In this document: one piece after another, positions 6,613 through 64,000 of the stretch
Numbering within the stretch: position 1 is the stretch's first letter
Layout: each line of letters begins with the position of its first letter
NCBI RefSeq assembly: GCF_029968035.1
Contig: NZ_JASCIQ010000010.1
Coordinates: 124,001-188,000 of the forward strand
Origin: Streptomyces cavernicola
GTDB lineage: Bacteria > Actinomycetota > Actinomycetes > Streptomycetales > Streptomycetaceae
Direction of reading: 5' to 3'
Length of the DNA stretch: 64,000 nucleotides
Made by a program: the position numbers and the translations under genes
The notes under the pieces: generated by a model
Told to the model about the DNA's origin: nothing
Seen by the model: the letters and a program-made list of their open reading frames with translations, nothing else
The model's database searches: none

Positions 6613-7493
6613 CACGGCAGCGCCTTGCGGGCGGTCGCGAAGCGCGGCCGGTTGTTCAGGTCGGGGTGGTCGGCGGCGTCCGCCCAGCCCCGCTCCTCGG
6701 TGAAGATCCAGGGGACCTGGCCGCCCTGGGTGTCGGCGTGCTCGATGACGACGACGCCGCCGGGGCGGAGCAGCCGGTGCGCGGTGCGCTCCAGGCCGCG
6801 GATGGTGTCGAGCCCGTCCTCGCCGGAGAACAGGGCCAGCTCCGGGTCGTGGTCGCGGGCCTCCGGGGCGACGTACTCCCACTCCGTGAGCGGGATGTAC
6901 GGCGGGTTGGAGATGACCAGGTCGACCTGGCCGTCCAGGTCCGGCAGCGCGGTGAGCGCATCCCCCTGGTGCAGCTGGACCCGCGTCCCCTCGACGTTCT
7001 TACGGGTCCACCGCAGCGCGTCCTCGGACAGCTCCACGGCGTGCACCCGCGAGCGCGGCACCTCCTGGGCCATGGCGAGCGCGATGGCCCCCGAGCCCGT
7101 GCACAGGTCCACGATCAGCGGCTCGACCACGTCCATCGCGCGGACCGCGTCTATGGCCCAGCCGACCACCGACTCGGTCTCCGGGCGCGGCACGAACACC
7201 CCTGGCCCCACCTGGAGTTCGAGGTACCGGAAGAACGCCCGGCCGGTGATGTGCTGGAGCGGCTCGCGGGCCTCGCGGCGGGAGACGGCCTCCCAGTAGC
7301 GGGCGTCGAAGTCGGCGTCCTTGACGTTGTGCAGTTCGCCCCGCTTCACGCCGTGCACGAAGGCGGCGAGCTCCTCGGCGTCGAAACGCGGCGAGGGCAC
7401 GCCGGCGTCGGCGAGCCGCTGGGTGGCCTGGGCCACTTCCGCGAGCAGCACGCTGCGGGGGCTTGGGGGTCGCTCCCCAAATTGTCGCTGCAC
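6612..7493 (-). CDS. prmC: Peptide chain release factor N(5)-glutamine methyltransferase
   Basis: SAM-dependent enzyme that methylates the Gln of the GGQ motif in release factors RF1 and RF2. 293 residues, with the N-terminal helical RF-binding domain, the SAM loop DLCTGSGAIALA and the catalytic SNPPYIPLTEWE motif. It lies directly downstream of prfA, its substrate gene, 55 bp away. I chose the GTG at 7491-7493 because of a clear GGAGG six bases upstream. The first 13 residues look unconserved, and their DNA contains the string gggcttggggg, so translation could also begin at the later GTG giving VLLAEVAQ. Confidence 0.93.
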   Translation of the reverse strand: MQRQFGERPPSPRSVLLAEVAQATQRLADAGVPSPRFDAEELAAFVHGVKRGELHNVKDADFDARYWEAVSRREAREPLQHITGRAFFRYLELQVGPGVFVPRPETESVVGWAIDAVRAMDVVEPLIVDLCTGSGAIALAMAQEVPRSRVHAVELSEDALRWTRKNVEGTRVQLHQGDALTALPDLDGQVDLVISNPPYIPLTEWEYVAPEARDHDPELALFSGEDGLDTIRGLERTAHRLLRPGGVVVIEHADTQGGQVPWIFTEERGWADAADHPDLNNRPRFATARKALP

Positions 7494-7548
7494 GCTGGTC
7501 CTCCGGTGCTGCTGTACGTGCTGATAGGTCGGTCGGTGCGTACGGCGG

Positions 7549-8628
7549 TTACTGCGCGGCCGCGAGCTTCGCCGCGGAGTCCGCGTCGACGCAGGCCTGG
7601 ATGACCGCGTCCAGGTCGCCGTCGAGCACCTGGTCCAAGTTGTACGCCTTGAAGCCCACCCGGTGGTCGGAGATCCGGTTCTCCGGGAAGTTGTACGTAC
7701 GGATCTTCTCGGAGCGGTCGACCGTGCGGACCTGGCTGCGACGGGCGTCGGCGGCCTTGGACTCGGCCTCCTCCTGCGCCGCGGCGAGCAGCCTGGAGCG
7801 CAGGATACGCATCGCCTGCTCCTTGTTCTGCAGCTGGGACTTCTCGTTCTGGCAGGAGGCCACGACACCGGTCGGGATGTGCGTGATGCGTACGGCGGAG
7901 TCCGTGGTGTTGACGGACTGGCCGCCGGGCCCGGACGAGCGGTACACGTCGATCCGCAGGTCGTTGGCGTGGATCTCCACGTCGACCTCCTCGGCCTCGG
8001 GCGTGACGAGCACACCGGCGGCGGAGGTGTGGATACGGCCCTGCGACTCGGTCGACGGCACGCGCTGCACGCGGTGCACCCCGCCCTCGTACTTCATCCG
8101 CGCCCAGACGCCCTGGCCGGGCTCGGTCGCGCCGCCCCCGCCCTTGGTCTTCACGGCGACCTGGACGTCCTTGTAGCCGCCCAGCTCGGACTCGGTGGAG
8201 TCGATGATCTCGGTCTTCCAGCCGATGCGCTCCGCGTACCGCAGATACATCCGAAGGAGGTCACCGGCGAACAGCGCCGACTCGTCGCCGCCCGCGCCCG
8301 CCTTGATCTCCAGGAGGACGTCCTTGTCGTCGGACGGGTCGCGCGGCACGAGCAGCAGGCGCAGCTTCTCGGTGAGCTCCTCGCGCTGCTCCTCGAGCTC
8401 CTTGACCTCGGCGGCGAACTCCGGGTCGTCGGCGGCCAGTTCACGGGCCGTCTCGATGTCGTCCCCGGTCTGCTTCCAGGAGCGGTACGTGCCGACGATC
8501 GGGGTCAGCTCGGCGTAGCGCTTGTTGAGCTTGCGCGCGTTGGCCTGGTCCGCGTGGACCGAAGGGTCGGCGAGCTGCTTCTCGAGATCGGCGTGCTCAC
8601 CGATCAGTTCCTCGACCGCCTCGAACAT
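7549..8628 (-). CDS. prfA: Peptide chain release factor 1
   Basis: RF1 recognises UAA/UAG and triggers peptide release. 359 residues, the standard length. The GGQ loop [20 protein letters not shown] is intact, and the N-terminal coiled-coil domain is followed by domain 2 with [20 protein letters not shown]1-type identity is consistent with linkage to prmC and rpmE. Start ATG at 8626-8628. Confidence 0.96.
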
Positions 8629-8667
8629 CTCCGGGCTCCTGGGTGCGTGAAGGGAAGGGGTGCGACC

Positions 8668-8717
8668 AAAAACGCCGGTCCTGGTCGCCCCTGGGCGGGA
8701 GCGACCGAGGACCGGCG
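8668..8717 (-). terminator. Rho-independent terminator after rpmE
   Basis: On the minus strand a stem of about 16 bp (CGCCGGTCCTCGGTCGC against GCGACCAGGACCGGCG, one bulge) is followed by TTTTT (8668-8672). It begins 10 bp past the rpmE stop and separates rpmE from prfA. Confidence 0.85.
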
Positions 8718-8727
8718 CTGTGGCTCG

Positions 8728-8952
8728 CTACTTCTTGGCGGAGCCGGCGGCCTTGCCGAAGCGGGCCTCGAAGCGGGCCACGCGGCCACCGGTGTCGAGG
8801 ATCTTCTGCTTGCCCGTGTAGAACGGGTGGCACTCGGAGCAGACCTCGGCGCGGACGGTGCCGCTGGAGATCGTGCTGCGGGTGGTGAACGACGCGCCGC
8901 AGGTGCAGCTGACCTGGGTCTCGACGTACTCGGGGTGAATGTCGCGCTTCAA
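8728..8952 (-). CDS. rpmE: 50S ribosomal protein L31 (zinc-binding type)
   Basis: 74-residue large-subunit protein starting [16 protein letters not shown]. Cysteines in SCTCGASF and [13 protein letters not shown] form the zinc ribbon of the C+ L31 type, and the family end motif [11 protein letters not shown] is present. The start is a TTG at 8950-8952, preceded by AGGAGACACC. By analogy, a zinc-free paralogue under Zur control may lie elsewhere in the genome. Confidence 0.96.
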
Positions 8953-9111
8953 GGTGTCTCCTAGTTTCGGGAGGGCGCCGGGTCGCAGACGCGGGATGCG
9001 GGTGCGTGAACCGGGGCCGACGTACCAGTCTGCCAGGACTGGCCGCATCCCCCAAAACCGGGGAGGGGCGGGATCTATTCCCCCGGTCCGGACGGACGCG
9101 TTCCGCAGGGG

Positions 9112-10239
9112 TCAGCGGCTGCTGACCACGCTGCCCGCGCCGCCCTTGTCGCCCGCGGAGCCCTTGGTCACGGAGGCGGGAATCCGCTGGTCGGAGCGGA
9201 GCGCGGCCCAGAGGAGCTTGTCCTGCTTCACCAGCGGCACGACGCGGTTCGGGTCGGCCGGGTCGTACGTGACCGGCAGCGTCACCATGTTCATGTCGTT
9301 CGACTCGATGCCCTTGAGGCTGTTGGCGAAGCCGATCAGGCTCTTCGGGTCGTCGAGCTCGGAGTCGGTGGTGACGGCCTTGGTCGCGGTGTCCGCGAGG
9401 TCGTACAGCTTCTTCGGGTGGCTGAAGACGCCGACGTCCTTGATCTGGTCGAGGAGCGCCTTGATGAAGGCCTGCTGCAGCTGTATTCGGCCGAGGTCGC
9501 CGCCGTCGCCCACCGCGTGCCGGGTGCGGACCAGGCCGAGGGACTGCTCGCCGTCGAGGCGATGGGTGCCGGCGGCCAGGTTCAGGTGGCTGTTCGGGTC
9601 GGAGATGGCCTGTTCGGTGGTGACCTCCACGCCGCCGAGCTCGTCGATGAGCTTCTTGAAGCCGGTGAAGTCGACTTCCAGATAGTGGTCCATGCGGATG
9701 CCGGACATCTTCTCGACGGTCTTCACGGCACAGGCGGGGCCGCCCACCGAGTACGACTCGTTGAACATCTGGTGCGGGCCGCCGGGGTCGGTCGTCCCGG
9801 CCTCGGTCCTGCACGCGGGCCTGGTCACCAGGGTGTCGCGCGGGATGGAGACGACGCTGGCCTTCTTGTGGCCCTCGTAGACGTGCACGACCATCGCGGT
9901 GTCCGAGCGGGAGCCCTCCTGGCCCGCGCTGCCGTACTCGGCGTTGGCGCCCTCCCGGGAGTCGGAGCCGAGGACGAGGATGTCCATCGAGCCGTTGTCG
10001 ACGTCGTCGGGGCGGTCGGTGCCGAGCGCGGCGTTGATGTCGACGCCGTTGATGTTGCCGTTCAGCTTGAAGTAGACGTAGCCCAGGCCTATGCCGCCGG
10101 CGAGGACCACGGAGGCGGCCGCCCAGGCGGTGACGACCAGGGCCTTGCTGCGCGCGCGGGGCGCGCGGCGCCTGCCGCCGGGGCCCTTGCGTCGGCGCTG
10201 CAGCGGATTCGTGGCGGGATCGTCGCTCTCGTCGGCCAT
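9112..10239 (-). CDS. LytR-CpsA-Psr (LCP) family cell-wall glycopolymer ligase
   Basis: Single-pass membrane protein that attaches anionic glycopolymers from lipid carriers to peptidoglycan. Layout: an Arg/Lys-rich cytosolic N-terminus (residues 1-31), one TM helix (about 33-55), then an extracytoplasmic LCP domain with DILVLGSDSREG, GSRSDTAMVVHV, SVVSIPRDTLV and the late VRTRHAVGDGGDLGRIQLQQ, whose arginines bind the pyrophosphate. Start ATG at 10237-10239 with GAGGAG three bases upstream. Its lipid-linked substrate could come from the WecA-like pathway encoded at 2.1-3.5 kb, which is inference. Confidence 0.92.
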   Translation of the reverse strand: MADESDDPATNPLQRRRKGPGGRRRAPRARSKALVVTAWAAASVVLAGGIGLGYVYFKLNGNINGVDINAALGTDRPDDVDNGSMDILVLGSDSREGANAEYGSAGQEGSRSDTAMVVHVYEGHKKASVVSIPRDTLVTRPACRTEAGTTDPGGPHQMFNESYSVGGPACAVKTVEKMSGIRMDHYLEVDFTGFKKLIDELGGVEVTTEQAISDPNSHLNLAAGTHRLDGEQSLGLVRTRHAVGDGGDLGRIQLQQAFIKALLDQIKDVGVFSHPKKLYDLADTATKAVTTDSELDDPKSLIGFANSLKGIESNDMNMVTLPVTYDPADPNRVVPLVKQDKLLWAALRSDQRIPASVTKGSAGDKGGAGSVVSSR

Positions 10240-10573
10240 GTGCTCCTCAGTCCTCGTCGGTCGGGTACCCCCTGCTCTCAGGGTCGGACGGGCTCGACGC
10301 CACCGAACATGGCGCATTGGTGCAGCCACTTGTCAGACGCCGAATCCCGAAAAAGGGTTGCACAGTGCATTAAGCGCTCCGTAAGGCCGAAGGGCCCGAG
10401 CTGCCCGGCGACGGTCGCGTGCGGTCCTCTTCCCGCACCGCCCGGCAACCCCTCTCACCTGCACGATCGGGGTACGGACCGGACCGCGCGCGCCGCCCCC
10501 GTACGCCCCTGACCTGTGGCAAAGCTCTCGCGCGCGGCCGTCCTCGTACGAGATACGCGATACGAGATACGAG

Positions 10574-10622
10574 AAAAGCCCCGCCCCCCGCCGCGGACGA
10601 ACCGTGACGGGGGGCGGGGCCT
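10574..10622 (-). terminator. Rho-independent terminator after rho
   Basis: On the minus strand GGCCCCGCCCCCCGTC pairs with CGGGGGGCGGGGC, followed by TTTTC, starting about 17 bp past the rho stop. The remaining 10240-10573 holds the LCP gene upstream region and short direct repeats of ATACGAG. No gene is seen there. Confidence 0.85.
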
Positions 10623-10638
10623 TGAGCGCGGGACCTGA

Positions 10639-12648
10639 TCAGTCGTTGCCGTTGCCCGGGGTGGGCGTGGTCTTGGCGATCTGCATCAGGAACTCGGCGT
10701 TCGACTTCGTCTGCTTCATCTTGTCGAGAAGCAGCTCGATCGCCTGCTGCGAGTCGAGCGCGTGCAGCACCCGGCGCAGCTTCCAGACGATGCTCAACTC
10801 CTCGCTGTTCAGGAGGATTTCCTCCTTGCGGGTGGAGGAGGCGTCGACGTCGACGGCCGGGAAGATGCGCTTGTCCGAGAGCTTCCGGTCGAGCTTGAGC
10901 TCCATGTTGCCGGTGCCCTTGAACTCCTCGAAGATCACCTCGTCCATGCGCGAGCCGGTCTCGACGAGCGCGGTGGCCAGGATGGTCAGCGAGCCGCCGT
11001 CCTCGATGTTCCGCGCGGCGCCGAAGAAGCGCTTCGGCGGGTACAGCGCGGTCGAGTCGACACCACCGGACAGGATGCGCCCGGACGCCGGGGCCGCGAG
11101 GTTGTACGCACGGCCGAGGCGGGTGATCGAGTCGAGCAGGACCACGACGTCGTGACCCAGCTCGACGAGACGCTTGGCGCGCTCGATGGCCAGCTCGGCG
11201 ACGGTGGTGTGGTCCTCGGCGGGACGGTCGAAGGTCGAGGAGATGACCTCGCCCTTCACCGACCGCTGCATGTCGGTGACTTCCTCGGGCCGCTCGTCGA
11301 CGAGGACGACCATGAGGTGGCACTCGGGGCTGTTGTGCGTGATCGCGTTGGCGATGGCCTGCAGGATCATGGTCTTGCCGGTCTTCGGCGGGGCCACGAT
11401 CAGACCGCGCTGCCCCTTGCCGATCGGCGACACGAGGTCGATGATCCGGGTCGACAGGGCGCCGGGCTCGTTCTCCAGGCGCAGCCGCTCCTGCGGGTAA
11501 AGGGGCGTCAGCTTGTTGAACTCCGGGCGGCCGCGGCCGGTTTCGGGCGCCATGCCGTTGACCGAATCGAGGCGGACGAGCGCGTTGAACTTCTCGCGCC
11601 GCTCGCCGTCCTTGGGCTGACGCACCGCGCCGGTGACGTGATCGCCCTTGCGCAGACCGTTCTTGCGGACCTGGGCGAGGGAGACGTACACGTCGTTCGG
11701 GCCGGGCAGGTAGCCCGACGTACGAATGAACGCGTAGTTGTCGAGGATGTCGAGGATGCCCGCGACGGGGATCAGGACGTCGTCCTCGGACAGCTGCGGC
11801 TCGTTGACGTCGTCACGGCCGCGACGGCCGCGACGGTCGCGGTAGCGGCCGCGGCGACCGCGCCTGCCACCCTCGAACTCGTCGTCGTCCTGGCGGTCTT
11901 GACGGTCCTGACGCCCTCCGCCGCCCTGCTCCTTGCGGCCCTGGCCGCCGCCCTGACCGCCCTGCTCGTCGCCCTTGTTGCGACGGTTGCCGCGGTCGCG
12001 GCGGTTGCCGCGGTCACCGCGCTCGCCGCGGTCGCGGTCACGGCCGCGCCCCTCGGCGTTGTCCGCGGCGCCCTCGGCGCGGGAGTCCGCAGCCTCGGTC
12101 TTCGACTCGGCCTTGGCCTCGCTCTTCGACTCGGCCTGCGCGTCCGGGGCGCCGCCCTCGGAGGTGACGCGACGGCGGCCGCGGCGCTCACCGGCGGAGT
12201 CGTCGCTCGCGGGCTGGCCCGGGATGTCGATCTGCTGCTGAGCGGCCGGCTTCTCGGCGGCCTTCTCCGACTTGGCGGGCTTCTCGGCCTTCTCGGCCTT
12301 GGCGCCCTCGCTCTCGCCGGTACGCGCCTTGGAGGTGGCCCGGCGCTTGGGCTTGCTCTCGGTCTCGCCCGTCGACTTGGCGGGGGCGGAACCGCCCGCG
12401 GCCTGCGCCTCCTTGATGACGTCGATCAGCTGGCTCTTGCGCATACGCGCGGTGCCCCTGATCCCGAGGCCCGATGCGACCTGCTGAAGCTCGGCCAGCA
12501 CCATGCCCTCGAGGCCGGTACCGCGGCGCCGCCGCGTGCCGGCCGAAGCACCGGTGGCAGGCGCAGCAGAGGCGTCCGTGGCGGGCGCGCCGGCGGTGTC
12601 GACCGCACTGTCGGCAGTCACGCCCATCAGATCGGTGGTGTCGCTCAC
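10639..12648 (-). CDS. rho: Transcription termination factor Rho with large RG/D-rich insertion
   Basis: Hexameric RNA helicase that ends transcription at C-rich, unstructured sites. 669 residues versus about 420 in E. coli; the excess is an N-terminal low-complexity insertion (about 50-280). Its first part is Ala/Lys/Glu-rich and its second part has runs such as [20 protein letters not shown] and [16 protein letters not shown]. Such insertions are typical of actinobacterial Rho and affect RNA binding. The cold-shock-like RNA-binding domain ([15 protein letters not shown]), Walker A APPKTGKT and Walker [10 protein letters not shown] are intact. It is preceded by a 384-bp non-coding leader. 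Confidence 0.97.
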
Positions 12649-14230: not shown

Positions 14231-15307
14231 TTACGCGAGACCGAGGCGCTCGGCCGCGGTCGCGGCGTCGACCGGGACCGTGACGGGCTGCGGGGCGCCC
14301 GCGACCGCCCAGTCCGGGTCCTTGAGGCCGTTGCCGGTGACCGTGCAGACGATCCGCTGGCCCTTGTCGACCTTGCCCTCCTCGGCGGCCTTCAGGAGAC
14401 CGGCGACCGATGCGGCCGAGGCGGGCTCCACGAAGACGCCCTCGCGGGAGGCCAACAGCTTGTAGGCACGCAGGATCTGACGGTCGGTCACCTCGTCGAT
14501 GAAGCCGCCCGACTCGTCCCGCGCGGCCTCGGCGAAGGCCCAGGAGGCGGGGTTGCCGATGCGAATCGCGGTGGCGATCGTCGACGGGTCCTTGACGACC
14601 TCGCCGCGCACGATCGGCGCCGAACCGGAGGCCTGGAAGCCCCACATGCGCGGGGTGCGCTCGGAGAGGCCGTCGGCCTTGTACTCCTTGTAACCGCGCC
14701 AGTAGGCCGTGATGTTGCCCGCGTTGCCGACCGGCAGGACGTGGATGTCGGGGGCGTCGCCGAGGCGGTCCACGATCTCGAACGCGGCGGTCTTCTGGCC
14801 CTCGATGCGGACCGGGTTGACCGAATTCACCAGCGCCACCGGGTAGTTCTCGCTCAGGCCGCGGGCGAGCACCAGGCAGTCGTCGAAGTTGCCGTCGACC
14901 TGGAGGATCTTCGCGCCGTGCACGAGGGCCTGGCCGAGCTTGCCCATCGCGATCTTGCCCTGCGGGATGAGGACGGCGCTGACCATGCCGGCCTTGCCCG
15001 CGTACGCCGCGGCGGAGGCCGAGGTGTTGCCGGTGGAGGCGCAGATGACGGCCTTCGCGCCCTCCTCCTTGGCCTTGGTGATGGCCATGGTCATGCCGCG
15101 GTCCTTGAACGAACCGGTGGGGTTGGCGCCCTCGACCTTCAGGTACACCTCACAGCCGGTGAGCTCGGAGAGGACCTCTGCGCGGACGAGCGGAGTGCCG
15201 CCCTCGCCGAGCGTGACCACGGGCGTCGTCTCGGTGACGGGGAGACGGTCGCGGTACTCCTCGATGATCCCGCGCCACTGGTGGGCGCCGGCCTTGATGG
15301 CGGTCAT
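14231..15307 (-). CDS. thrC: Threonine synthase
   Basis: PLP enzyme converting O-phosphohomoserine to threonine. About 358 residues. The PLP lysine lies in [14 protein letters not shown]; the SerThr-type phosphate loop ([11 protein letters not shown]) and [15 protein letters not shown] are conserved. Start ATG at 15305-15307, seven bp after hom, so the two are co-transcribed. No T-box or attenuator was recognised ahead of the operon. Confidence 0.96.
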
Positions 15308-15314
15308 GGCTTCG

Positions 15315-16607
15315 TTACTCCCCTTCAACACGCATGATGCTGGCGACACCACGCACGGTGTCGAGCTGCCGCAGAGCGTCGACGGTGCCGGTGAGGGCGG
15401 CGTCCGCTGCACGGTGGGTGACGACGACGAGCGATGCCTCGCCGTCCTTACCCGACTGGCGCACCGTATCGATCGATACGCCGTGCTCGGCGAAGACCGT
15501 CGCCACCTGGGCGAGCACGCCCGGCTTGTCGGCCACGTCGAGGCTGATGTGGTACCGCGTCACGACCTCGCCCATCGGGCTCACCGGCAGGCGGGTGTAC
15601 GCGGATTCGCCGGGCCCGGTGGCGCCGGCGAGCTTGTTGCGGCAGACGGCCACGAGGTCGCCGAGGACCGCGGAGGCGGTGGGGGCGCCGCCCGCGCCGG
15701 GGCCGTAGAACATCAGCTGGCCGGCCGCGTCGGACTCCACGAACACCGCGTTGTACGCCTCACGGACCGAGGCCAGCGGGTGCGTCAGCGGGATCATCGC
15801 GGGGTGCACGCGCGCGGTGACGGACTCGCCGTCGGCGGCGCGCTCGCAGATGGCGAGCAGCTTGATGGTGCAGCCCATCTCCTTCGCGGATGCGAAGTCG
15901 GCGGCGGTGACCTCGGCCATGCCCTCGCGGTACACGTCGTCGAGGCGCGCCCGCGTGTGGAAGGCGATGCCGGCCAGGATCGCGGCCTTGGCGGCGGCGT
16001 CGAAGCCCTCGACGTCGGCGGTCGGGTCGGCCTCCGCGTACCCGAGCGCGGTGGCCTCGTCGAGCGCCTCCTGGTAGCCGGCGCCGGTCGTGTCCATCTT
16101 GTCGAGGATGAAGTTCGTGGTGCCGTTGACGATGCCCATGACGCGGTTGATCTTGTCGCCGGCGAGGGACTCGCGCAGCGGCCGGATCAGCGGGATGGCG
16201 CCGGCGACGGCGGCCTCGTAGTACAGATCCCGGCCGTGCTCGTCCGCCGCCTCGTGCAGGGCCGCGCCGTCCTGGGCGAGCAGCGCCTTGTTGGCCGAGA
16301 CGACGGAGGCGCCGTGCTCGAAGGCGGTGGTGATCAGCGTACGAGCGGGCTCGATGCCGCCGATCACCTCGACCACGACGTCCAGATCGCCGCGTTTGAC
16401 CAGGGCGGTGGCGTCGGTGGTGACGAGCTCCTTGTCGATGCCCTCGCGCACCCGGTCGGGGCGGCGGACGGCCACGCCCGCCAGCTCCACCGGGGCGCCG
16501 ATCCGGGCCGCCAGGTCGTCGGCGTGCGTCGTCATGATGCGCGCCACCTCGGAGCCGACAACCCCGCAGCCAAGCAGCGCGACCTTCAGCGGACGCGTAC
16601 GCATCAT
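15315..16607 (-). CDS. hom: Homoserine dehydrogenase
   Basis: NAD(P)-dependent reduction of aspartate semialdehyde to homoserine. 430 residues: an N-terminal Rossmann domain ([16 protein letters not shown]), a catalytic domain with [14 protein letters not shown], and a C-terminal ACT domain ([19 protein letters not shown]), consistent with feedback control by threonine. Two adjacent ATGs start the frame; spacing from GAGG fits the second (16604) slightly better. Confidence 0.96.
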
Positions 16608-53982: not shown

Positions 53983-54171
53983 GCCGCGGACGCGCGTGCC
54001 CTGCCGCAGCGGAACCTCGCTTGTTTCCCGCCATTTCCAGCCCCGAAACACGCGATCCAATGTGACTTACGCGACCAAAGTCCCGCCCGGTCTGCACCTC
54101 TCGGCCACGGAGGCGTAGCCTTTATTCCCGCTGTCCATCACCTTGTGAAGCGGAAGAGGGCGGTTACCGCC

Positions 54172-57100
54172 GTGTCGCCACAGTCCCCCAGTAACTCGAG
54201 CACCACGACCGACCAAGAGGGGCAGGGCAAGAACCCTGCCGCTGCTTTCGGTCCCAACGAGTGGCTCGTCGACGAGATCTACCAGCAGTACCTCCAGGAC
54301 CCGAACTCGGTTGACCGAGCCTGGTGGGACTTCTTCGCCGACTACAAGCCGGGGGGCGCCACCGCCGCTCCGGCCCAGCCGACGCAGGCTCCCGCCACCG
54401 GTACCGCAGCCGCGGGGGCTGCGGTGACTCCCACCAAGCCGAGCGCTCCCGCAGGCGTTTCGACGCAGACCCCGGCCCCCGCGAAGCCCGCGGCGGACGC
54501 CCCGGTCAAGCCGGCCCCCGCAGCGCCCGCCCCGGTGAAGCCCGCGGCCCCGGCCGCGCCCGCCGCCGCGAAGCCCGCTGCCGCGCCGAAGAAGGCCGAG
54601 CCGGCCGCCGAGGCCCCCGCGGGCCCCGAGCTGGTCACGCTGCGCGGCCCCGCCGCCGCCGTCGCGAAGAACATGAACGCCTCCATCGAGGTCCCCACGG
54701 CCACGTCCGTGCGCGCGGTCCCGGTGAAGCTGCTCTTCGACAACCGCATCGTCATCAACAACCACCTGAAGCGCGCCCGGGGCGGGAAGATCTCCTTCAC
54801 CCACCTCATCGGGTACGCGATGGTGCAGGCCATCAAGGCCATGCCGTCGATGAACCACTCCTTCGCGGAGAAGGACGGCAAGCCCACCCTGGTCAAGCCG
54901 GAGCACATCAACTTCGGCCTCGCCATCGACCTGGTCAAGCCCAACGGCGACCGCCAGCTCGTGGTCGCGGGCATCAAGAAGGCCGAGACCCTGAACTTCT
55001 TCGAGTTCTGGCAGGCCTACGAGGACATCGTCCGGCGCGCCCGCAACGGCAAGCTCGGCATGGACGACTTCACCGGTGTCACGGTCTCGCTGACCAACCC
55101 CGGCGGCCTCGGCACCGTCCACTCCGTGCCGCGCCTGATGCCCGGCCAGTCGGTCATCATGGGCGTCGGCTCCATGGACTACCCGGCGGAGTTCCAGGGC
55201 ACCTCCCAGGACACCCTGAACAAGCTCGGCATCTCGAAGGTCATGACGCTCACGTCGACCTACGACCACCGGGTCATCCAGGGCGCCGCCTCCGGCGAGT
55301 TCCTGCGCATCGTGGCCAACTTCCTCCTCGGCGAGGAGGGTTTCTACGACGACATCTTCAAGTCGCTGCGCATCCCCTACGAGCCGGTCCGCTGGCTCAA
55401 GGACATCGACGCGTCGCACGACGACGACGTCACGAAGGCCGCCCGCGTCTTCGAGCTGATCCACTCCTACCGGGTCCGCGGCCACGTCATGGCCGACACC
55501 GACCCGCTGGAGTACCGCCAGCGCAAGCACCCTGACCTGGACATCACCGAGCACGGCCTCACCCTGTGGGACCTGGAGCGGGAGTTCGCGGTCGGCGGGT
55601 TCGCCGGTCAGTCGATGATGAAGCTCCGCGACATCCTCGGCGTGCTGCGTGAGTCGTACTGCCGCACCACCGGCGTCGAGTTCATGCACATCCAGGACCC
55701 GAAGCAGCGCAAGTGGCTGCAGGACCGCATCGAGCGACCGCGCAACAAGCCGGAGCGCGAGGAGCAGCTGCGCATCCTGCGCCGGCTGAACGCCGCCGAG
55801 GCCTTCGAGACGTTCCTGCAGACCAAGTACGTCGGCCAGAAGCGGTTCTCCCTGGAGGGCGGCGAGTCCGTCATCCCGCTGCTCGACGCGGTCATCGACT
55901 CGGCCGCCGAGTCGCGCCTGGACGAGGTCGTCATCGGCATGGCCCACCGCGGCCGCCTGAACGTCCTCGCCAACATCGTCGGCAAGTCGTACGCGCAGAT
56001 CTTCCGCGAGTTCGAGGGCAACCTCGACCCGAAGTCGATGCACGGCTCCGGCGACGTGAAGTACCACCTGGGCGCCGAGGGCACCTTCACCGGTCTCGAC
56101 GGCGAGCAGATCAAGGTCTCGCTCGCCGCGAACCCCTCCCACCTGGAGGCGGTCGACCCGGTCCTGGAGGGCATCGCCCGCGCCAAGCAGGACATCATCA
56201 ACAAGGGCGGCACGGACTTCACGGTCCTGCCGGTGGCGATCCACGGCGACGCGGCCTTCGCGGGCCAGGGCGTCGTGGCCGAGACCCTGAACATGTCGCA
56301 GCTGCGCGGCTACCGCACCGGCGGCACCGTGCACGTCGTCATCAACAACCAGGTCGGCTTCACGGCGGCGCCCGAGTCCTCGCGCTCCTCCATGTACTCG
56401 ACCGACGTGGCGCGGATGATCGAGGCCCCGATCTTCCACGTCAACGGCGACGACCCCGAGGCCGTCGTCCGCGTCGCGCGCCTTGCCTTCGAGTTCCGGC
56501 AGGCGTTCAACAAGGACGTGGTCATCGACCTCATCTGCTACCGCCGCCGCGGGCACAACGAGTCGGACAACCCGGCGTTCACGCAGCCGCTGATGTACGA
56601 CCTGATCGACAAGAAGCGCTCGGTGCGCAAGCTCTACACCGAGTCCCTCATCGGTCGCGGCGACATCACCCTCGAAGAGGCCGAGCAGGCGCTGCAGGAC
56701 TACCAGGGCCAGCTGGAGAAGGTCTTCACCGAGGTCCGCGAGGCCACCCAGCAGTCCGCTCCGGGCGAAGTCCCGGGCGCCGAGGCCGAGTTCCCGGTCG
56801 CGGTCAAGACGGCCGTCTCGCAGGAGGTCGTCAAGCGGATCGCCGAGTCCCAGGTCAACATCCCCGACCGCGTCACCGTGCACCCGCGGCTGCTGCCGCA
56901 GCTGCAGCGCCGCGCGTCCATGGTCGAGGACGACACCATCGACTGGGGCATGGGCGAGACCCTGGCCATCGGTTCGCTGCTCCTGGAAGGCACCCCGGTC
57001 CGCCTCGCGGGCCAGGACTCCCGCCGCGGCACCTTCGGCCAGCGCCACGCGGTCCTCATCGACCGCGAGACCGGCGACGACTTCACGCCGCTCCTGTACC

Positions 57101-57987
57101 TCTCCGAGGACCAGGCCCGGTACAACGTCTACGACTCGCTGCTCTCCGAGTACGCGGCGATGGGCTTCGAGTACGGCTACTCGCTGGCCCGTCCCGAGGC
57201 GCTCGTGATGTGGGAGGCGCAGTTCGGTGACTTCGTCAACGGCGCGCAGACCGTCGTCGACGAGTTCATCACCTCCGCCGAGCAGAAGTGGGGCCAGCAC
57301 TCCGGCGTCACCCTGCTCCTGCCGCACGGCTACGAGGGCCAGGGCCCGGACCACTCGTCCGCACGCCCGGAGCGGTTCCTGCAGCTGTGCGCGCAGAACA
57401 ACATGACGGTCGCCATGCCGACGCTGCCGTCGAACTACTTCCACCTCCTGCGGTGGCAGGTGCACAACCCGCACCACAAGCCGCTGATCGTCTTCACCCC
57501 GAAGTCGATGCTGCGCCTGAAGGCCGCGGCCTCGAAGGCGGAGGAGTTCACGACGGGCGGCTTCCGCCCCGTCATCGGCGACGAGTCGGTCGACCCGGCC
57601 GCGGTCCGCAAGGTCGTCTTCTGCGCTGGCAAGGTCTACTACGACCTGGAGGCCGAGCGGCAGAAGCGCGGCGCCACGGACACGGCGATCATCCGCATCG
57701 AGCGTCTGTACCCGCTGCCGGGTGCGGAGCTCCAGGAGGAGATCGCCAAGTTCCCGAACGCCGAGAAGTACCTGTGGGCCCAGGAGGAGCCGGCGAACCA
57801 GGGTGCCTGGCCGTTCATCGCGCTCAACCTGATCGACCACCTGGACCTGGCCGTCGGCGCCGACGTCCCGCACGGTGAGCGCCTGCGCCGCATCTCGCGG
57901 CCGCACGGCTCGTCCCCGGCGGTCGGCTCGGCCAAGCGCCACCAGGCCGAGCAGGAGGCGCTCGTCGCGGAGGTCTTCGACGCGTGA
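54172..57987 (+). CDS. kgd: Multifunctional 2-oxoglutarate decarboxylase/dehydrogenase (Kgd)
   Basis: About 1271 residues, the actinobacterial SucA/Kgd that fuses an E2-type succinyltransferase domain to a thiamine-dependent E1. N-terminal segment [20 protein letters not shown], a Pro/Ala-rich linker (about 65-155), the acyltransferase active site [10 protein letters not shown] (about 363), then E1 with [16 protein letters not shown] (thiamine diphosphate, about 690) and [15 protein letters not shown]. It feeds the TCA cycle with DlaT and Lpd, and FHA proteins of the GarA type inhibit it. Start placed at GTG 54172 ([10 protein letters not shown]) over the upstream GTG 54145. Confidence 0.96.
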
Positions 57988-58100: not shown

Positions 58101-61070
58101 TCAGATGGTCTGCGGCTCGAAGTCCCAGTACGGGCGGCGGCCTTCGAACATGTAGCGCACCTGCCGGTGCTTGTCGTAGAGGTTCTCCTCCAGGACGGTG
58201 AGCGCCTCCCGGTGCACCTGCTCGGCCTCCTCGGCGGCGCCGCTCGCGCGCAGGTCCTGGGCCAGGCCCGCCGCCAGGTTCAGGGACAGCACATGCCGCT
58301 CGCCGATCTCGGCGCGGGCCCGGTCGAGGGCGTCCCGGCCGAGCTCGACCGCGCCGGGCAGGTCGCCGGTGGCCGCCCGCGCGGAGGCGCCGTTCATCGC
58401 GCAGCCGATGGACCAGACATGCCGTCGGCCGAGGGCCCGCTCCATCCGTTGCCGGGCCTCCTCGGCGCGCGGCCGGGCCCCGTCGTGGTCGCCCTGGCAG
58501 CGCTGGATCAGCGCGCAGTTGTCCAACAGGCCCGCCGTGTACGGGTGGTGCTCGCCGAGCAGCAGCCGGTACCGGCCGAGGGTGCTCTCGGCCAGCTCCC
58601 GGGCCTCGTCGAGGTCGCCGTTGTCCCGCAGCAGCATCGCGTAGTCCGAGCTGACCATCAGCGTCTCGGGGTGGCTGGGTCCGCGGCGGCGGGAGAAGCG
58701 GTCGAGGACCGAGCGCATCATCACCCGGGCGAAGCCGATGTCGCCCTCGCGGCGCCGGCACAGGGCCAGGTTGTGCTGCGAGAGCAGGCTCTGGCTGTGG
58801 TTCTTGTCGAGGACCTGGGAGTGCAGGTTGCTGTTCTGCTCCTGGATGGCGAGGGCTTCCTCGTACCGCCCGAGGAGGCGGAGCATCCAGGCCGTGTGCA
58901 GGCCGGCGTGGAGGGTGGACTGGCTTCTGCCGCCGAGGAGTTCGATGCTGGACTTCAGGACGCCGCGGTGCAGTTCGTACGACTCCTGGTAGCGGCCGGT
59001 CAGGCCGAGGGCGATGGCCAGGTTGCCGCGCGTGGCCAGGGTGCGCGGCACGCCCTCGTCACCGAGGGCCTCGGCGGACTGGGCGGCCGCCTCGGCGAGG
59101 AGGGTGCGCGCCTCCTCGTAGAGGCCGAGGGCCATCAGGGTGCCCGCGAGGCCGTTCTTGGCGCGCACCACCTGGATCGGCCCCTGCTCGGGGCTTGCGG
59201 TCACGGCTGCCAGGACCTTGCGGCCGAGGCGCTCCGCCGCCGCGTAGTTCCCCAACCGGCGTTCCATGACCATGAGTTGGTGGGTCGCGACGAGCACCTG
59301 CGGGTCGGTGGGGCCGGACTGCGGCGTCCAGGCGTCCACGGTGGCGCGGCCGAGCCGGACGCCCTCCTTGTACTCGCCGCGGACGCGCAGGTATTCGATG
59401 CAGTTGAGGACGAGGGTGCGGACGTCGGGTGAGGCGGAGGCGAGGGCGCCGGCCTCCTCCAGGTGCGGGATCAGCTCCGCGTACCGCGCCCAGTTGCCGG
59501 CCTGGCCGGGCTCGCGCGGGTCGGCCGAGACCAGCACCTGGCAGGCGATGCCGGAGGCCTCCGTCTGCTGCTGCTCGGTGAGTTGGACGCGTACGAAGCG
59601 GTGGAAGAGGCGGTGCATCTGCAGCGCGGAGACGATCTGGGTGTCCAGGTAGGGGCCCTTGTCGTACTCCAGGCGCATCGAGGTGGCCTCGGAGAGTCTG
59701 CGCAGGGTGCCGTTCCAGCTGCTCGGCTCGGCGACGAGCGCCGCCAGGTGGTCCGGCAGGTCGGCCGCACGCGCGGTGCGCAGCAGGCGCACGGGCACGG
59801 CGTCCGGGGAGAAGAACACCAGGAGGCAGAGGAGTTCGTACGCGTGCGGGTGCTTGTCGCGCAGGGTGTTGAGGGTGATGCTCCAGGCCATCTGGAACGT
59901 ACGGTCGTCGCCGTCCGTCGCCACCTGGGCGGCGTGCGGGTCGCCCTCGCGGATCTCGCGTACGTATTCGTCGACGTCGGCGGTGGAGTTGGTGTCCAGC
60001 CAGGCCGCGGTCTGGGCGAGGAGCAGGGGCATGTCCTCGACGGCGTCGGCGAGTTCGGCCGCGGCGTCCTTCCGGAGCCGCTTGGTCCGCAGGCAGGCGA
60101 AGGCCACCGACTCGTCCCGCTCGAAGGGCGGCAGCTCCACGAGTTCCGCGCCGGCCCCGCCCCAGGTCGTGCTGGTCGTGGTGATCAGGAGATGCCCCGG
60201 GCCGTCGGGCAGCACCGCGGCGAGCTCCTCGGGGTCCTCGGCCCCGTCGAGCACGATCAGCCAGCCGCGCCGCTCCGCCAGCTCCCGCTTGACCGCTTCG
60301 ATCCGGCCGCGCAGCACGTCCCCGGTGTCCACGAGCAGGTCGAGCCGGTCGGCGAGCTCGGCGAAGCCCTCGCGGGCGGTGGCGCGTTTGGTCGCCCTGA
60401 CCCACCACACGGTGTCGTACTCGGCGGCGTGCCGGTGCACGAACTCGATGGCAGTGGCGGTCTTGCCGACTCCGTGGACGCCGTGCAGCGCGACCCGCGC
60501 GCCCTCGCCGCCCTCGGTGAACTTGCCGTGCAGCTCGGCGAGTGCCTGCTCGCGGCCGGTGAAGCGGGCGTTGCGGCGGGGCGTGTTCCTGGCCCTCCAG
60601 GTGGTGTCGGGGAAGCGGCCGCGGGCGAGGTCGACGGGCCGGCCCGACTCCGGGGCGAGGCCGAGGGCGTCGAGCAGCCGGGCCTCGGCGGCCTCGGGCG
60701 CGAGGCCGCGCAGCTCGATGACCGGCCCGAGCTCGGCGAGGCCTTCGGGCACCGGCGACGCGGTCACGGTGACCATGACGAGGCGCTCGCGGACGTCCGG
60801 CGCGAGCTCGCGCACGAGGTCGACCCACACGTCGGGCCGCCGGTGGTCCACCCGCAGGAACCAGTCGTCGAGGACGAGGACGATCGGGCCGGGCACGGTC
60901 GTGATCCGGTCGAGGTCCTCGGCGTCCGGGCGCCGGCGCAGCGGGTCCCAGAGCACCGAGCTGGTCTCGGCGCCCGACCTGGCAAGCCGCTCGCTCATCC
61001 AGGCGGCCCAGTGGGCGGACTGGCCCGCGTGGACGAGGGCGAGGTGCTGGGGCGGGGTGGGAGCGGTCAT
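58101..61070 (-). CDS. TIR-like/NB-ARC/TPR protein of an Fxs-type RiPP system
   Basis: 989 residues. Residues 1-135 look like the TIR-like domain of FxsC/FxsT proteins (LALVHAGQSAHWAAWMSERL; VLWDP). An NB-ARC-type NTPase follows: RFTGREQALAEL, Walker A HGVHGVGKTATAIEF (about 196-210), Walker B WLIVLDGAED (about 270-279), then a winged helix. From about 560 to 970 is a TPR array with repeats such as RTLATRGNLAIALGLTGRY. It matches the 'FxSxx-COOH system TPR protein' family in layout. It is the last gene of the operon, 41 bp after the radical SAM gene. Role in RiPP action or regulation unknown; inference only. Confidence 0.85.
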   Translation of the reverse strand: MTAPTPPQHLALVHAGQSAHWAAWMSERLARSGAETSSVLWDPLRRRPDAEDLDRITTVPGPIVLVLDDWFLRVDHRRPDVWVDLVRELAPDVRERLVMVTVTASPVPEGLAELGPVIELRGLAPEAAEARLLDALGLAPESGRPVDLARGRFPDTTWRARNTPRRNARFTGREQALAELHGKFTEGGEGARVALHGVHGVGKTATAIEFVHRHAAEYDTVWWVRATKRATAREGFAELADRLDLLVDTGDVLRGRIEAVKRELAERRGWLIVLDGAEDPEELAAVLPDGPGHLLITTTSTTWGGAGAELVELPPFERDESVAFACLRTKRLRKDAAAELADAVEDMPLLLAQTAAWLDTNSTADVDEYVREIREGDPHAAQVATDGDDRTFQMAWSITLNTLRDKHPHAYELLCLLVFFSPDAVPVRLLRTARAADLPDHLAALVAEPSSWNGTLRRLSEATSMRLEYDKGPYLDTQIVSALQMHRLFHRFVRVQLTEQQQTEASGIACQVLVSADPREPGQAGNWARYAELIPHLEEAGALASASPDVRTLVLNCIEYLRVRGEYKEGVRLGRATVDAWTPQSGPTDPQVLVATHQLMVMERRLGNYAAAERLGRKVLAAVTASPEQGPIQVVRAKNGLAGTLMALGLYEEARTLLAEAAAQSAEALGDEGVPRTLATRGNLAIALGLTGRYQESYELHRGVLKSSIELLGGRSQSTLHAGLHTAWMLRLLGRYEEALAIQEQNSNLHSQVLDKNHSQSLLSQHNLALCRRREGDIGFARVMMRSVLDRFSRRRGPSHPETLMVSSDYAMLLRDNGDLDEARELAESTLGRYRLLLGEHHPYTAGLLDNCALIQRCQGDHDGARPRAEEARQRMERALGRRHVWSIGCAMNGASARAATGDLPGAVELGRDALDRARAEIGERHVLSLNLAAGLAQDLRASGAAEEAEQVHREALTVLEENLYDKHRQVRYMFEGRRPYWDFEPQTI

Positions 61071-61111
61071 TCGGGAGGGCCTCCTCCTCCGTGTCTCTTC
61101 GGGAGGTTACG

Positions 61112-62452
61112 TCACTCTTCGTCAACTACCGGTAAACGTACGTCAGTTAGGGCGCCTTGCGCCGAGTGGACGCCGGGCGGGCCGGACGGGCCGTCGCGGG
61201 TACGGCTGCGGGTGCGCCTTTCCAGTTCGCCGGCGAGGCGGTCGGCGAGGTGGCGGATGAGGCGTTCCAGGTCGGCGCAGTACACGCTGGGGTGCCGGAA
61301 GCCGCCGGTGCGGGCGGAGTAGCGGTGGGCGTAGTTGCCGCCACCGCAGACCCGCACGACCGGGCAGGCCAGGCACTCCTCGGCGAGCGCGCGCAGCCCC
61401 TGCCTGCGGGCGGCGATCCCGGGGTGGCGCAGGGCCTCGTCGAAGGAGTTGCGGAACACGTCGAGGCCGGTGGCGGGCGCCCCGTCGTAGGCGGACTTGA
61501 GCGCGTCGACCTGTTCGACGGCGCCGTCCGTGTCGACCACGACCACGGCGAGCGGGGAGGTCCCGACGGCCTCGGTGGCGCTCTCCGCGCCGAGCAGCAG
61601 CGCCAGGATCTCGCTGAACAGCCGAAGCCGCGGCCGGCCCGGCTCCCGGTCGGCCCACCACTGCTCGAACGCGCCGATCAGCCAGTCCGCGTACGGGGTG
61701 GGGCTCGGCCGGTGCCGACCGGGGGCCGCTGCGGCCCAGTGGGCGTGCGGGAGCAGGAAGTCGAGCGCGGGCGGGCCGAGCCGGCGCAGCGAGCGGTACA
61801 CCTCGCGCGGGTCGGTGACCGGGTCGATGGTGCTGAGCAGGCCCGCGTACGTCTCGGGTCGTGCCGCGAGGAGTCCGGCGGCGCGCCGGACGGCCGGCCA
61901 GGACGGGCGGCCCGCGTGGTCGACCCTGCGGGCGTTCAGGTCCGCGGAGCCTCCGTCGAGGCTGAGGCCGACGCGGATCCCGGCGGCGGCGAACCGGTCG
62001 AGGACCGCCGGGGTGAGCAGGGTGCCGTTGGTCTGCACGGTGACGTCGACCCGCGCGCCCGGCGCCGCCTCCCGTACGGCGGCACGGACCCTATCGGCGT
62101 ACGCGACGAGGAACCCGGGGCCGGCGAGCAGCGGTTCGCCTCCGTGCAGGTCCAGCCGGATGCGGCCGATGCGGTGCGCGGCGGTGTGCTCGGCGATGCG
62201 GTACGCGACCTGGCGGACGGTGGCCTCGGGAATACGATGCGGGCGCTCACGCCAACTGCCGTCGGGGCCGGTGTAGATGTAGCAGTAGGTGCAGGCGAGG
62301 TTGCAGCGGCTGTGCACTTTGAGGACGAACTGACGGAAGCCGGTGGGTGTTTGGGGCTCTTGTTCGTGCTTGTGCTCGTGCTCGTGCGCTTCGGGTCGGC
62401 CCGGCTGAGGCCTGCTGCGCGGCTCGCCCCTGGGACTGTCGGGCCTGCTCAC
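61112..62452 (-). CDS. FxsB-type radical SAM/SPASM peptide maturase
   Basis: 446 residues. The radical SAM cluster motif is CNLACTYCY (Cys 50, 54, 57). The auxiliary-cluster region reads ECLACPVVRVCGGGNYAHRY then SVYC (Cys 360, 363, 369, 392), the hallmark of the FxsB family that forms three-residue cyclophanes on RiPP precursors. A His/Glu-rich stretch (HEHEHKHEQE, about 22-32) precedes the core. No metallohydrolase or hydroxylase extension is fused; the C-terminal 54 residues are basic then disordered. GTG start overlaps the small gene stop (GTGA). I am sure of the superfamily; the exact subfamily is inference. Confidence 0.93.
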   Translation of the reverse strand: MSRPDSPRGEPRSRPQPGRPEAHEHEHKHEQEPQTPTGFRQFVLKVHSRCNLACTYCYIYTGPDGSWRERPHRIPEATVRQVAYRIAEHTAAHRIGRIRLDLHGGEPLLAGPGFLVAYADRVRAAVREAAPGARVDVTVQTNGTLLTPAVLDRFAAAGIRVGLSLDGGSADLNARRVDHAGRPSWPAVRRAAGLLAARPETYAGLLSTIDPVTDPREVYRSLRRLGPPALDFLLPHAHWAAAAPGRHRPSPTPYADWLIGAFEQWWADREPGRPRLRLFSEILALLLGAESATEAVGTSPLAVVVVDTDGAVEQVDALKSAYDGAPATGLDVFRNSFDEALRHPGIAARRQGLRALAEECLACPVVRVCGGGNYAHRYSARTGGFRHPSVYCADLERLIRHLADRLAGELERRTRSRTRDGPSGPPGVHSAQGALTDVRLPVVDEE

Positions 62453-62625
62453 TTGGGGTCCGCCGCATCCGAGTAGTACGCGAGCCCGGCCTCACCGGAG
62501 GCCTCCCGCTCCCCGATCTCGACCAGGACGGCGGCGAGGACCGGGTGGCGGACCGAGCCGGGGGCGGGGCGCGGGAAGACGGGCAGGGGTATGTCCGCGG
62601 AGTCCCCCTGAGCGGGAGTGTTCAT
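62449..62625 (-). CDS. 58-residue candidate RiPP precursor
   Basis: Starts with ATG at 62623-62625 overlapping the upstream TPR gene stop (ATGA), and stops in GTGA overlap with the radical SAM gene. The leader-like part contains IPLPVFPRPAPGSVRHPVLAAVL (landmarks IPLPVFPRPAPG and HPVLAAVLVEIGERE) and an amphipathic stretch; the tail is GEAGLAYYSDAADPK. Classical FxsA peptides end FxSxx; here Y-Y-S-D sits eight residues before the end. Tyr49/50 or Tyr-Ser-Asp are the likely crosslink sites, by analogy with aromatic-x-x cyclophane motifs. No other short gene fits between the two neighbours. Confidence 0.75.
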   Translation of the reverse strand: MNTPAQGDSADIPLPVFPRPAPGSVRHPVLAAVLVEIGEREASGEAGLAYYSDAADPK

Positions 62626-64000
62626 GGGCGGGAGTCCGGAGGACGGGAGTCCGGGGGGCGGAAATCCGGGGGGCGGGAGCCCGGGGGTGCGGGGGTCTGC
62701 TGGTCGGCGCCTGCCGGGTGGGGCGGCTGCTGGTCCGCGTCCGCCGGGCGGGCGGCCTGCTCGTCCGCTTCTGCCGGGCGGGCGGCCTGCTCGTCCGCGT
62801 CAGCCGGGCGAGGCGTCTGGCGCTCCGGCTCCGCCGAGCGGGACGCCTGGGCCACCTCGTCCGCGTCCGCCGGGCGAGAGCCCTGCCGCTCCGCCTCGGC
62901 CGTCTGGTCCGCGGCGGTCTGGTCCGGGGCCGTCTGGTCCGCCGCCGTGATCAGGGTGCGCAGCTCGTGCTCGACGCGGGCGTGCAGGCGGGACCGTTCG
63001 CCGGAGTCCGCGTCGTCCGCCGTGGTGCCCGCGCCGGCATCGAGAGCCGTCAACTTGCGGTGGGCGCGCTCCAGTTCGTTCACGGCCGCGGCTCGGCCCG
63101 CCGTGGCCATGAGCTGGCCGGAGCGCTCGATCCGCGCCTCCACGGCCAGCGTCGCGAAGCCCAGCTGCTCGGCCTCCTCCACGCAGCGGCGGTAGTGGTC
63201 GGCGGCCGTCACGCGGTAGCGGTGGGCTCCCGTGCGGCGGGCGAGCGCGTCGGCGACGCGGCCTCGGTGCAGCGCGGCGTACGCGACGATCTCGTCGTCC
63301 CCCTCTCGCATGGCCACGCCGAGGGCCCAGTCCGCTTCATGCAGGTCCGAGAGGGCCTCGCCGTGGCGGTACCGGGAGATCAGGGACACGGCGAAGAGCA
63401 GGTGCCGGCGGGGCGCTTCGGGGTCGCTGGCGGCGGTGAGATCGAGGGCGGCCCGGAACGCGCGGACACAGCGGTCCAGTTGTCCGGGAGACTCGTTTTC
63501 CTCGTCTTCCTCGTTTTCCTCGGCTTCGCGGTGGCCCACGACGCCGTACCGCCCGGGAGGGACTCCGTCGGCGTCCAGCAGGAGCTGGCCGAGCAGTGTG
63601 TGCAGCCCGGCGTCCTCAGGGACCAGCTCCAGGGCTCTGTCCAGGTCGGCGACGGCCTGGGCGAGGCTGTCCTGCGGGCCGAGCAGGTGGCCGTAGCGCC
63701 AGAGGTGGAACGCCCGGTTCGCCAGGGCCGTGCTCAGTTGCCGGGGGTCCACTGAGGTCTCGATCGCCTGGTCGAGCGCCGCGAGGCCGGCGATCAGCGG
63801 GTCGAGCAACGATTCCGCCGGGTCGACGGTGAGCTCGTGCGCCTCGGCCAAGTCCAGCCAGCGCACGGCCAGTTCACCGGCCTCGATGTTCGCACCCAGC
63901 AAGCCCGACGTGCCCGACGCACCCGACGCACCCGCCCGCGGAGCCAGCACGCGCTCCAGGTCCACGACCGCACGCCCCGCCAGCTCCCGCTGCTGCCGCG
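62622..64000 (-). CDS. TPR-like protein heading the RiPP operon (5' end beyond window)
   Basis: At least 459 residues; the frame is open to the right edge (RQQRELAGRAVVDLERVL at the edge), so the true start is outside. The N-terminal two thirds is helical with TPR-like units (LDRALELVPEDAGLHTLLGQLLLDA; landmarks ALANRAFHLWRYGHLL, AAYAALHRGRVADALARRTG-like). An acidic patch EENEEDEENE lies mid-protein. The C-terminal 110 residues are disordered, with six decapeptide repeats of the RPADADEQAA type and ending RPPDSRPPDSRP. The stop overlaps the precursor start (ATGA), so the genes are coupled. Function unknown. Confidence 0.7.
   Translation of the reverse strand, partial: RQQRELAGRAVVDLERVLAPRAGASGASGTSGLLGANIEAGELAVRWLDLAEAHELTVDPAESLLDPLIAGLAALDQAIETSVDPRQLSTALANRAFHLWRYGHLLGPQDSLAQAVADLDRALELVPEDAGLHTLLGQLLLDADGVPPGRYGVVGHREAEENEEDEENESPGQLDRCVRAFRAALDLTAASDPEAPRRHLLFAVSLISRYRHGEALSDLHEADWALGVAMREGDDEIVAYAALHRGRVADALARRTGAHRYRVTAADHYRRCVEEAEQLGFATLAVEARIERSGQLMATAGRAAAVNELERAHRKLTALDAGAGTTADDADSGERSRLHARVEHELRTLITAADQTAPDQTAADQTAEAERQGSRPADADEVAQASRSAEPERQTPRPADADEQAARPAEADEQAARPADADQQPPHPAGADQQTPAPPGSRPPDFRPPDSRPPDSRP

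Follow-up and report, generated by a model that had tools for sequence, protein, structure and literature searches.

A putative radical-SAM-only version of a peptide-coupled VMAP-ternary system beside sucA in Streptomyces cavernicola

The window, the whole stretch of 64,000 nucleotides of Streptomyces cavernicola DNA that was analysed, ends in four tightly linked minus-strand genes that face a plus-strand flank. The features of this region are:

54145..57987, plus strand: ORF that we take by homology to be sucA (2-oxoglutarate dehydrogenase E1), the convergent flank of the cassette site and a flank in relatives
58101..61070, minus strand: FxsT, a TIR-like/NB-ARC/TPR protein of 989 aa (NF040586, 723.4 bits, cut-off 300)
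60651..61070, minus strand: TIR-like N-terminal domain of FxsT, residues ~1-140 (AlphaFold2 model from 40 sequences)
61080..61090, minus strand: Shine-Dalgarno-like GGAGGAGGAGG ahead of FxsT (from the sequence)
61112..62452, minus strand: FxsB-family radical SAM/SPASM maturase, 446 aa, GTG start, without an HExxH domain (TIGR04269, 422.1 bits, cut-off 370)
62449..62625, minus strand: precursor peptide, 58 aa, tail AYYSDAADPK (NF041709, 29.4 bits, below the cut-off of 55)
62467..62475, minus strand: predicted three-residue cyclophane Tyr51-Ser52-Asp53 (from the tail alignment and the YxdB chemistry cited in the accessible text of PMC11002830)
62622..64000, minus strand: C-terminal TPR and low-complexity part of a vWA protein that runs past the window edge (1296 aa as a whole; L009 frame 6623-11251)

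The first-pass annotation had described four linked genes on this strand, and the sequence confirms its junctions: the vWA and peptide genes overlap in ATGA (62622-62625), the peptide and enzyme genes overlap in GTGA (62449-62452), and 41 bp then lead to FxsT. Its description of the operon as translationally coupled holds for a part. FxsT has its own GGAGGAGGAGG, and no Shine-Dalgarno site is evident by eye at either overlapping start, so that the appearance of coupling is confined to the first two junctions. The peptide stop and the enzyme start can overlap as NTGA in the window and in 22 of its 44 relatives with an aromatic-x-Asp tail, as against none of the 33 relatives with an FxSxx tail.

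The frame upstream of the peptide (62622-63998, minus strand, by ORF analysis) is open at the window edge, and the source assembly (100 contigs, 8.35 Mb) was used to read the gene content beyond it. What had been taken for a TPR-like protein proved to be the window-cut C-terminus of a 1296-aa vWA protein that has a SAV_2336-type vWA region (NF041121, 422.6 bits, cut-off 200) and the MIDAS motif DVSTS at 188, and that is a subunit of an already described ternary system. Nor does the operon start with an unusual TPR gene, as MoxR, trypsin-VMAP and Trypco1 lie further upstream, giving the order Trypco1, trypsin-VMAP, MoxR, vWA-TPR, precursor, FxsB, FxsT. The core scores are 109.2 bits for PF20028 (VMAP-C), 45.1 bits for Trypsin_2 and 58.1 bits for Trypco1, while the AAA protein is of the MoxR type. 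Of the two motifs that Kaur et al. (2020) list for its clade, WxhapG is fitted by WLIFRG, and PsWRxa by PHWRRF except for a His at the “small” position. Gene order and domain scores together give the VMAP, MoxR, vWA arrangement of a VMAP-ternary system. Judged by these sequence features, the window cassette is a VMAP-ternary conflict system plus a peptide module, of a kind described in 2020 (accessible text of PMC7159879). Among relatives with at least 9.5 kb upstream, Trypco1, VMAP, MoxR and vWA stand in this order in 33 of 40 aromatic-x-Asp loci and 24 of 27 FxSxx loci.

The maturase passes the curated FxsB cut-off (TIGR04269) and contains both CNLACTYCY and ECLACPVVRVCGGG, in agreement with its original assignment to the FxsB family. 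At E 0.001 the same model also matches 11 of 14 control genomes, none above the cut-off, and only matches above the cut-off were therefore counted. YhhB identity was rejected, the score of 326 bits on NF041707 falling short of the curated cut-off of 445. All 45 aromatic-x-Asp rows (window included) and all 33 FxSxx rows keep Cys50/54/57 (CX3CX2C) and the SPASM cysteines Cys360/363/369/392 unchanged. PADLOC returned only weak viperin matches for this protein. The closest solved structure is the cyclophane synthase ChlB (PDB 9gm3, 9gmc), with E 1.1e-78 to 9gm3 over residues 41-411, and by homology to YxdB and ChlB the maturase is predicted to join residues into a three-residue cyclophane. ChlBH carries a fused hydroxylase whose targets are Asp and His (accessible text of PMC12636437), whereas the window enzyme has no such domain. 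Its N-terminal HEHEHKHE fits the bare HExxH pattern but was rejected, as the HExxH model TIGR04267 has no match anywhere in the window genome; with this stretch set aside, neither the window nor L009 contains an HExxH motif.

The precursor carries Y51-S52-D53 near its C-terminus, and its gene overlaps that of the enzyme. Residues 24-55 align with positions 16-47 of the profile NF041709 (“YxD-tail cyclophane-containing RiPP peptide”; E 6e-7), and since the 29.4 bits miss the cut-off of 55, the peptide is YxD-like and not a member of the NF041709 class. Membership of the FxSxx type was also rejected: TIGR04268 (FxSxx-COOH) has no match to the precursor at E up to 1, and the C-terminus is AADPK, not F-x-S-x-x, which bears out the earlier remark that the standard FxSxx-COOH tail is missing. 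The suggestion drawn from it, that the peptide is an undescribed subtype, does not stand, as a model for YxD-tail RiPPs exists and a review cites formation of a C3(Tyr)-Cbeta(Asp) bond by YxdB (accessible text of PMC11002830). By analogy, Tyr51-Asp53 is the predicted ring.

The first-pass annotation had staked its reading on the small ORF being kept next to the maturase in relatives, and a precursor frame adjoins the enzyme in 77 of 78 of them, none being found at locus L087. Over the last 46 codons, dN is 0.10 and dS 0.47 and 0.44 between the window and its two nearest relatives, while those two compared with each other give dN 0.10 and dS 0.21. The position beside the enzyme and dN below dS together mark the ORF as more than chance, and its presence in 77 of 78 relatives ruled out a spurious ORF. 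The idea that the VMAP protease cuts off the leader at an Arg preceding the core was considered and rejected. Arg is frequent there, but no Asp is seen by eye six residues ahead of the active Ser, and trypsin-like specificity is thus unsupported.

FxsT, which passes the curated cut-off of NF040586, has an NB-ARC domain at residues 174-299 plus TPR repeats. The AlphaFold2 model of its N-terminal 175 residues (40 sequences; pLDDT 76, pTM 0.73) is closest to TIR domains (best Z 10.6), with receivers nearly equal at 10.1-10.2. In the TIR NADase motif, the catalytic Glu lies four residues after a conserved Trp. At the corresponding position, all 40 FxsT sequences have L, V or F and none has Glu, so that the TIR-like domain is likelier to be a scaffold than an NADase, as far as its sequence tells. 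The PADLOC scan covered the four window proteins, and among these FxsT, the peptide and the vWA protein's TPR part are without a model.

The 78 relatives, 77 from Streptomyces and one from Actinacidiphila, come from the best 80 of 160 matches in a genome contig search ranked by similarity to the window enzyme. Tails were classed by regular expressions written after the tails had been viewed, and the 77 relatives with a precursor (L087 being excluded from type counts) divide into 44 aromatic-x-Asp and 33 FxSxx loci, an uneven representation, as the sampling favours window-like enzymes. The 44 aromatic-x-Asp pairs are Y..D in 35, F..D in five, H..D in three and F..N in one, and three loci (L035, L037 and L084) have two cores per precursor. 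FxsT is present in 43 of the 44 aromatic-x-Asp and 31 of the 33 FxSxx loci. Scanned over the whole locus, the HExxH motif occurs in none of the 44 aromatic-x-Asp loci versus 31 of the 33 FxSxx loci, and the two exceptions (L079 and L082) are contig ends. It is also absent from all 20 further loci found with the YxD model (L120-L139), which come partly from the same genomes as the 78 relatives, for example L124 and L015. These counts show tail type to sort with the predicted modifying enzymes, as read from the presence or absence of HExxH.

A census of 121 evenly drawn Streptomyces genomes found FxsB above cut-off in 77 and sucA in 120. An opposite-strand FxsB lies within 25 kb at 39 of the 120 sucA sites; 42 have flanks less than 7 kb apart (most 0.4-3 kb) without FxsB, 28 have flanks 7-35 kb apart without FxsB, and 11 were left unclassified. 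At 12 of the 39 FxsB sites, a YxD-model match beside the enzyme spans the tail, while at 26 the match ends before or short of it. These 26 were read as FxSxx-like, and HExxH was present in all four of them that were scanned (L174, L175, L178 and L179). The remaining site, G081, was placed in neither tail class. All 28 long FxsB-less sites were inspected, and 15 contain Trypco1, VMAP, MoxR, vWA, FxsT and a frame with the HExxH motif. Two of these HExxH proteins scored 142 and 150 bits on TIGR04267 (cut-off 40). On FxSxx-COOH (cut-off 28), the small ORFs that precede them reached 15.7 and 27.0 bits. At three sites (L144, L165 and L166) the vWA protein contains or adjoins an NB-ARC-like stretch, in L165 as a single frame; L155 is aromatic-x-Asp-like, its assembly being interrupted by a gap at the enzyme, L163 contains the core alone, three sites (L141, L152 and L160) have an HExxH frame without VMAP parts, and five (L154, L156, L157, L164 and L167) have no cassette parts. 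The sucA site can also be occupied by an HExxH-only or a fused version, and in some genomes it is short or empty.

Among relatives' loci longer than 18 kb, the cassette has both its flanks, sucA and a DUF4097 gene, in 24 of 31 aromatic-x-Asp and 16 of 24 FxSxx loci. A further gene, orf265, was considered as a cassette part, but it is also present at the short sites L169, L170, L172 and L173 and was thus counted as flank. The tail types need one change on each of six cassette-gene trees, namely rSAM (79 rows), MoxR (65), FxsT (76), vWA (68), VMAP (58) and Trypco1 (57); the type-splitting branch of the rSAM tree has a support of 94 and is not starred, and the FxsT, vWA, VMAP and Trypco1 trees were built with FastTree, with long-branch warnings. 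The sucA tree (55 rows) has six type changes, 5 of them forced by starred branches, and a single clade of aromatic-x-Asp rows is rejected for sucA by an AU test (p 2.4e-6). The tree of the DUF4097 flank (48 rows) has five type changes, 2 of them forced. The trees show, for the sequences compared, that the six tested cassette genes are inherited as one block while types change at a fixed chromosomal site. One change on the cassette trees versus six on sucA points to exchange of the cassette as a block at one site, and the cassette seems to move as one block into this fixed site.

In an account without exchange between lineages, which we consider unlikely, an ancestor would have held both versions, with differential loss thereafter, or sucA recombination would mislead the trees. 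Tandem FxsB genes do exist (L130, L132 and L136), though away from the sucA site in those genomes, and the DUF4097 tree forces few of its changes; against this, sucA rejects the single clade, and none of the sucA-adjacent sites inspected has both versions. As regards the trees themselves, sucA may partly travel or recombine with the cassette, and differential loss is possible. Typing versions by sucA distance was dropped as unsafe, G036 being an exception.

In their accessible text, Kaur et al. (2020; PMC7159879) describe VMAP-ternary conflict systems with an FxSxx-type peptide module and a separate TIR-AP-ATPase-TPR gene, and propose that the vWA protein binds a peptide in a complex remodelled by MoxR, that sensing falls to the third component, and that the peptide, once processed, acts as a toxin or signal. 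The window has in common with these systems Trypco1, trypsin-VMAP, MoxR, vWA-TPR, a small precursor, a radical SAM/SPASM enzyme and the separate TIR-AP-ATPase-TPR gene. It differs in its aromatic-x-Asp tail, which is outside their four named classes, and in having no zincin/HExxH gene, so that what Kaur et al. regarded as the core step of the module is missing from the window version. They also suggest that peptide-module components are transferred laterally and exclude one another; none of the terms “same locus”, “genomic location” and “allel” appears in their accessible main text.

The YxD-tail triceptides (NF041709/YxdB; Sugiyama et al., 2022, as cited in the accessible text of PMC11002830, from whose description YxdB is known here) resemble the window in their Y-x-D tail and adjoining FxsB-family enzyme, but the window peptide has a longer AADPK end and a score under the NF041709 cut-off. 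The FxSxx-COOH triceptides (TIGR04268, FxsB plus HExxH) share with it a related leader, the enzyme family, the chromosomal site and an adjoining FxsT, but they have another tail and the HExxH motif, and they lie on the opposite side of the single branch in the six cassette-gene trees. The parts and general layout are thus already in print, while the HExxH-less aromatic-x-Asp version, the way in which the types sort, the block exchange and the alternative contents at the sucA site were not found in the open-licence literature. No open-licence paper was found that joins FxsB with cyclophane and radical SAM, and FxSxx was not found in the accessible part of PMC8195603.

Our best reading, to which we give a probability of about 0.62, is that the cassette is a radical-SAM-only version of a peptide-coupled VMAP-ternary conflict system, in which an intracellular, modified peptide is a putative signal for FxsT; the chemistry is assigned by homology and the function by context. 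The leader of the precursor, with its PLPxF and HPVL motifs, would be bound by FxsB, which would join Tyr51 to Asp53 into a three-residue cyclophane, as YxdB and ChlB suggest, with no hydroxylase step afterwards, unlike the FxSxx version. The modified tail would remain intracellular and serve as a ligand by which the complex is held or triggered, with FxsT, via its TPRs, favoured as its reader. On the model of Kaur et al. (2020; accessible text of PMC7159879), VMAP may sense the invader, and ATP-driven remodelling by MoxR and vWA would free FxsT, which would then oligomerise and bring the cell to a halt. Tail type, predicted modifying enzymes, FxsT and core genes sort together, as would suit a resident signal that is read by its cognate partners. 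The initial preference for signalling or defence over a simple antibiotic agrees with the published prediction for such systems (accessible text of PMC7159879).

That the peptide is a triceptide antibiotic or toxin for export and competition, with the ternary genes as its regulation or self-protection, appears improbable. Ring-forming SPASM enzymes elsewhere do make exported antibiotics, darobactin and dynobactin (accessible text of PMC11002830), and a peptide toxin is allowed by Kaur et al. (accessible text of PMC7159879), but cassette genes account for all frames from Trypco1 to FxsT, with no transporter among them, and the near-constant presence of FxsT in aromatic-x-Asp loci counts against export. 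A somewhat better, although still small, chance goes to a regulatory or developmental signalling cassette with no part in conflict with invaders. Fixed flanks at a chromosomal site favour it, as does the fact that FxsT, the peptide and the TPR part have no defence model in PADLOC; against it stand the type changes on the sucA tree and the many species in which the cassette is missing or replaced, as in the 42 of 120 census genomes with closely spaced flanks and no FxsB.

The proposed chemistry has an alternative of its own, in which the enzyme forms another bond, between other residues or on no residues of the window peptide at all. The sub-cut-off NF041709 score leaves room for it, as does the variable aromatic residue (Y in 35, F in six, H in three of 44), but 43 of the 44 have Asp at position i+2, the other having Asn, and the precursor overlaps the enzyme gene, which makes a different bond a poor prospect.

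For a cross-linked peptide family known chiefly for its chemistry, the radical-SAM-only conflict system would supply a link to a predicted bacterial immune machine. That related species differ in the version found at one site, or lack any there, amounts to a natural experiment, which makes the role of the triceptide directly testable. A bolder and rather doubtful extension makes the Streptomyces site a multi-version immune-type locus, whose versions would differ in peptide chemistry (a radical cyclophane or a hydroxylation by itself, both together, or neither), each with a co-inherited STAND reader, the modification serving as an identity code in defence or strain recognition; invaders or rivals would then select for version switching. 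As for the spread of the YxD class itself, NF041709 exceeds its cut-off in 15 of 392 Streptomyces genomes and 7 of 150 genomes of the host's family, and in 13 of 15 inspected genomes with such a match (L120-L134), Trypco1, VMAP, MoxR and vWA lie in the same stretch.

A version of the cassette that holds an HExxH frame and FxsT, the TIR-like/NB-ARC/TPR protein, with no radical SAM enzyme, lies at the same sucA site in relatives L140 (8185-9864) and L161 (8408-10039) and at 13 further loci from among L142-L162. In L140 and L161, the two loci examined for this, small ORFs bear a weak likeness to the FxSxx leader that stays below the cut-off.

In L043, L048, L050 and L054, FxsT sits upstream, not downstream, of the precursor and enzyme genes. 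In another arrangement (L044, L056, L135, L136 and L137), a distant MoxR-like match of 30-35% identity comes after the enzyme genes, as does FxsT, several kb downstream. Away from the sucA site, L130, L132 and L136 carry a tandem pair of FxsB-family genes with FxsT in between. Genomes G079 and G108 have five FxsB-family matches each, where the window genome has a single one that passes the cut-off.

The precursors of L035, L037 and L084 each contain two predicted cores, AYFSDAP and AYFAD[AT]P, and therefore two rings may be formed on them. Streptomyces monomycini (L064) has a second, isolated FxsB with an AFYDDAPPE precursor, and no other cassette parts were found around it within the 21 kb stretch.

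Two further features belong to the cassette and its site:

Window 62622-62990, minus strand: low-complexity Asp/Glu/Ala/Pro stretch, the C-terminus of the vWA protein
L009 (locus of the window genome) 15008-15805: conserved 265-aa protein

The former ends in repeated PPDSRP. The latter, which had zero matches in Pfam or NCBIfam, remains at the site in L169, L170, L172 and L173, where the cassette is missing.
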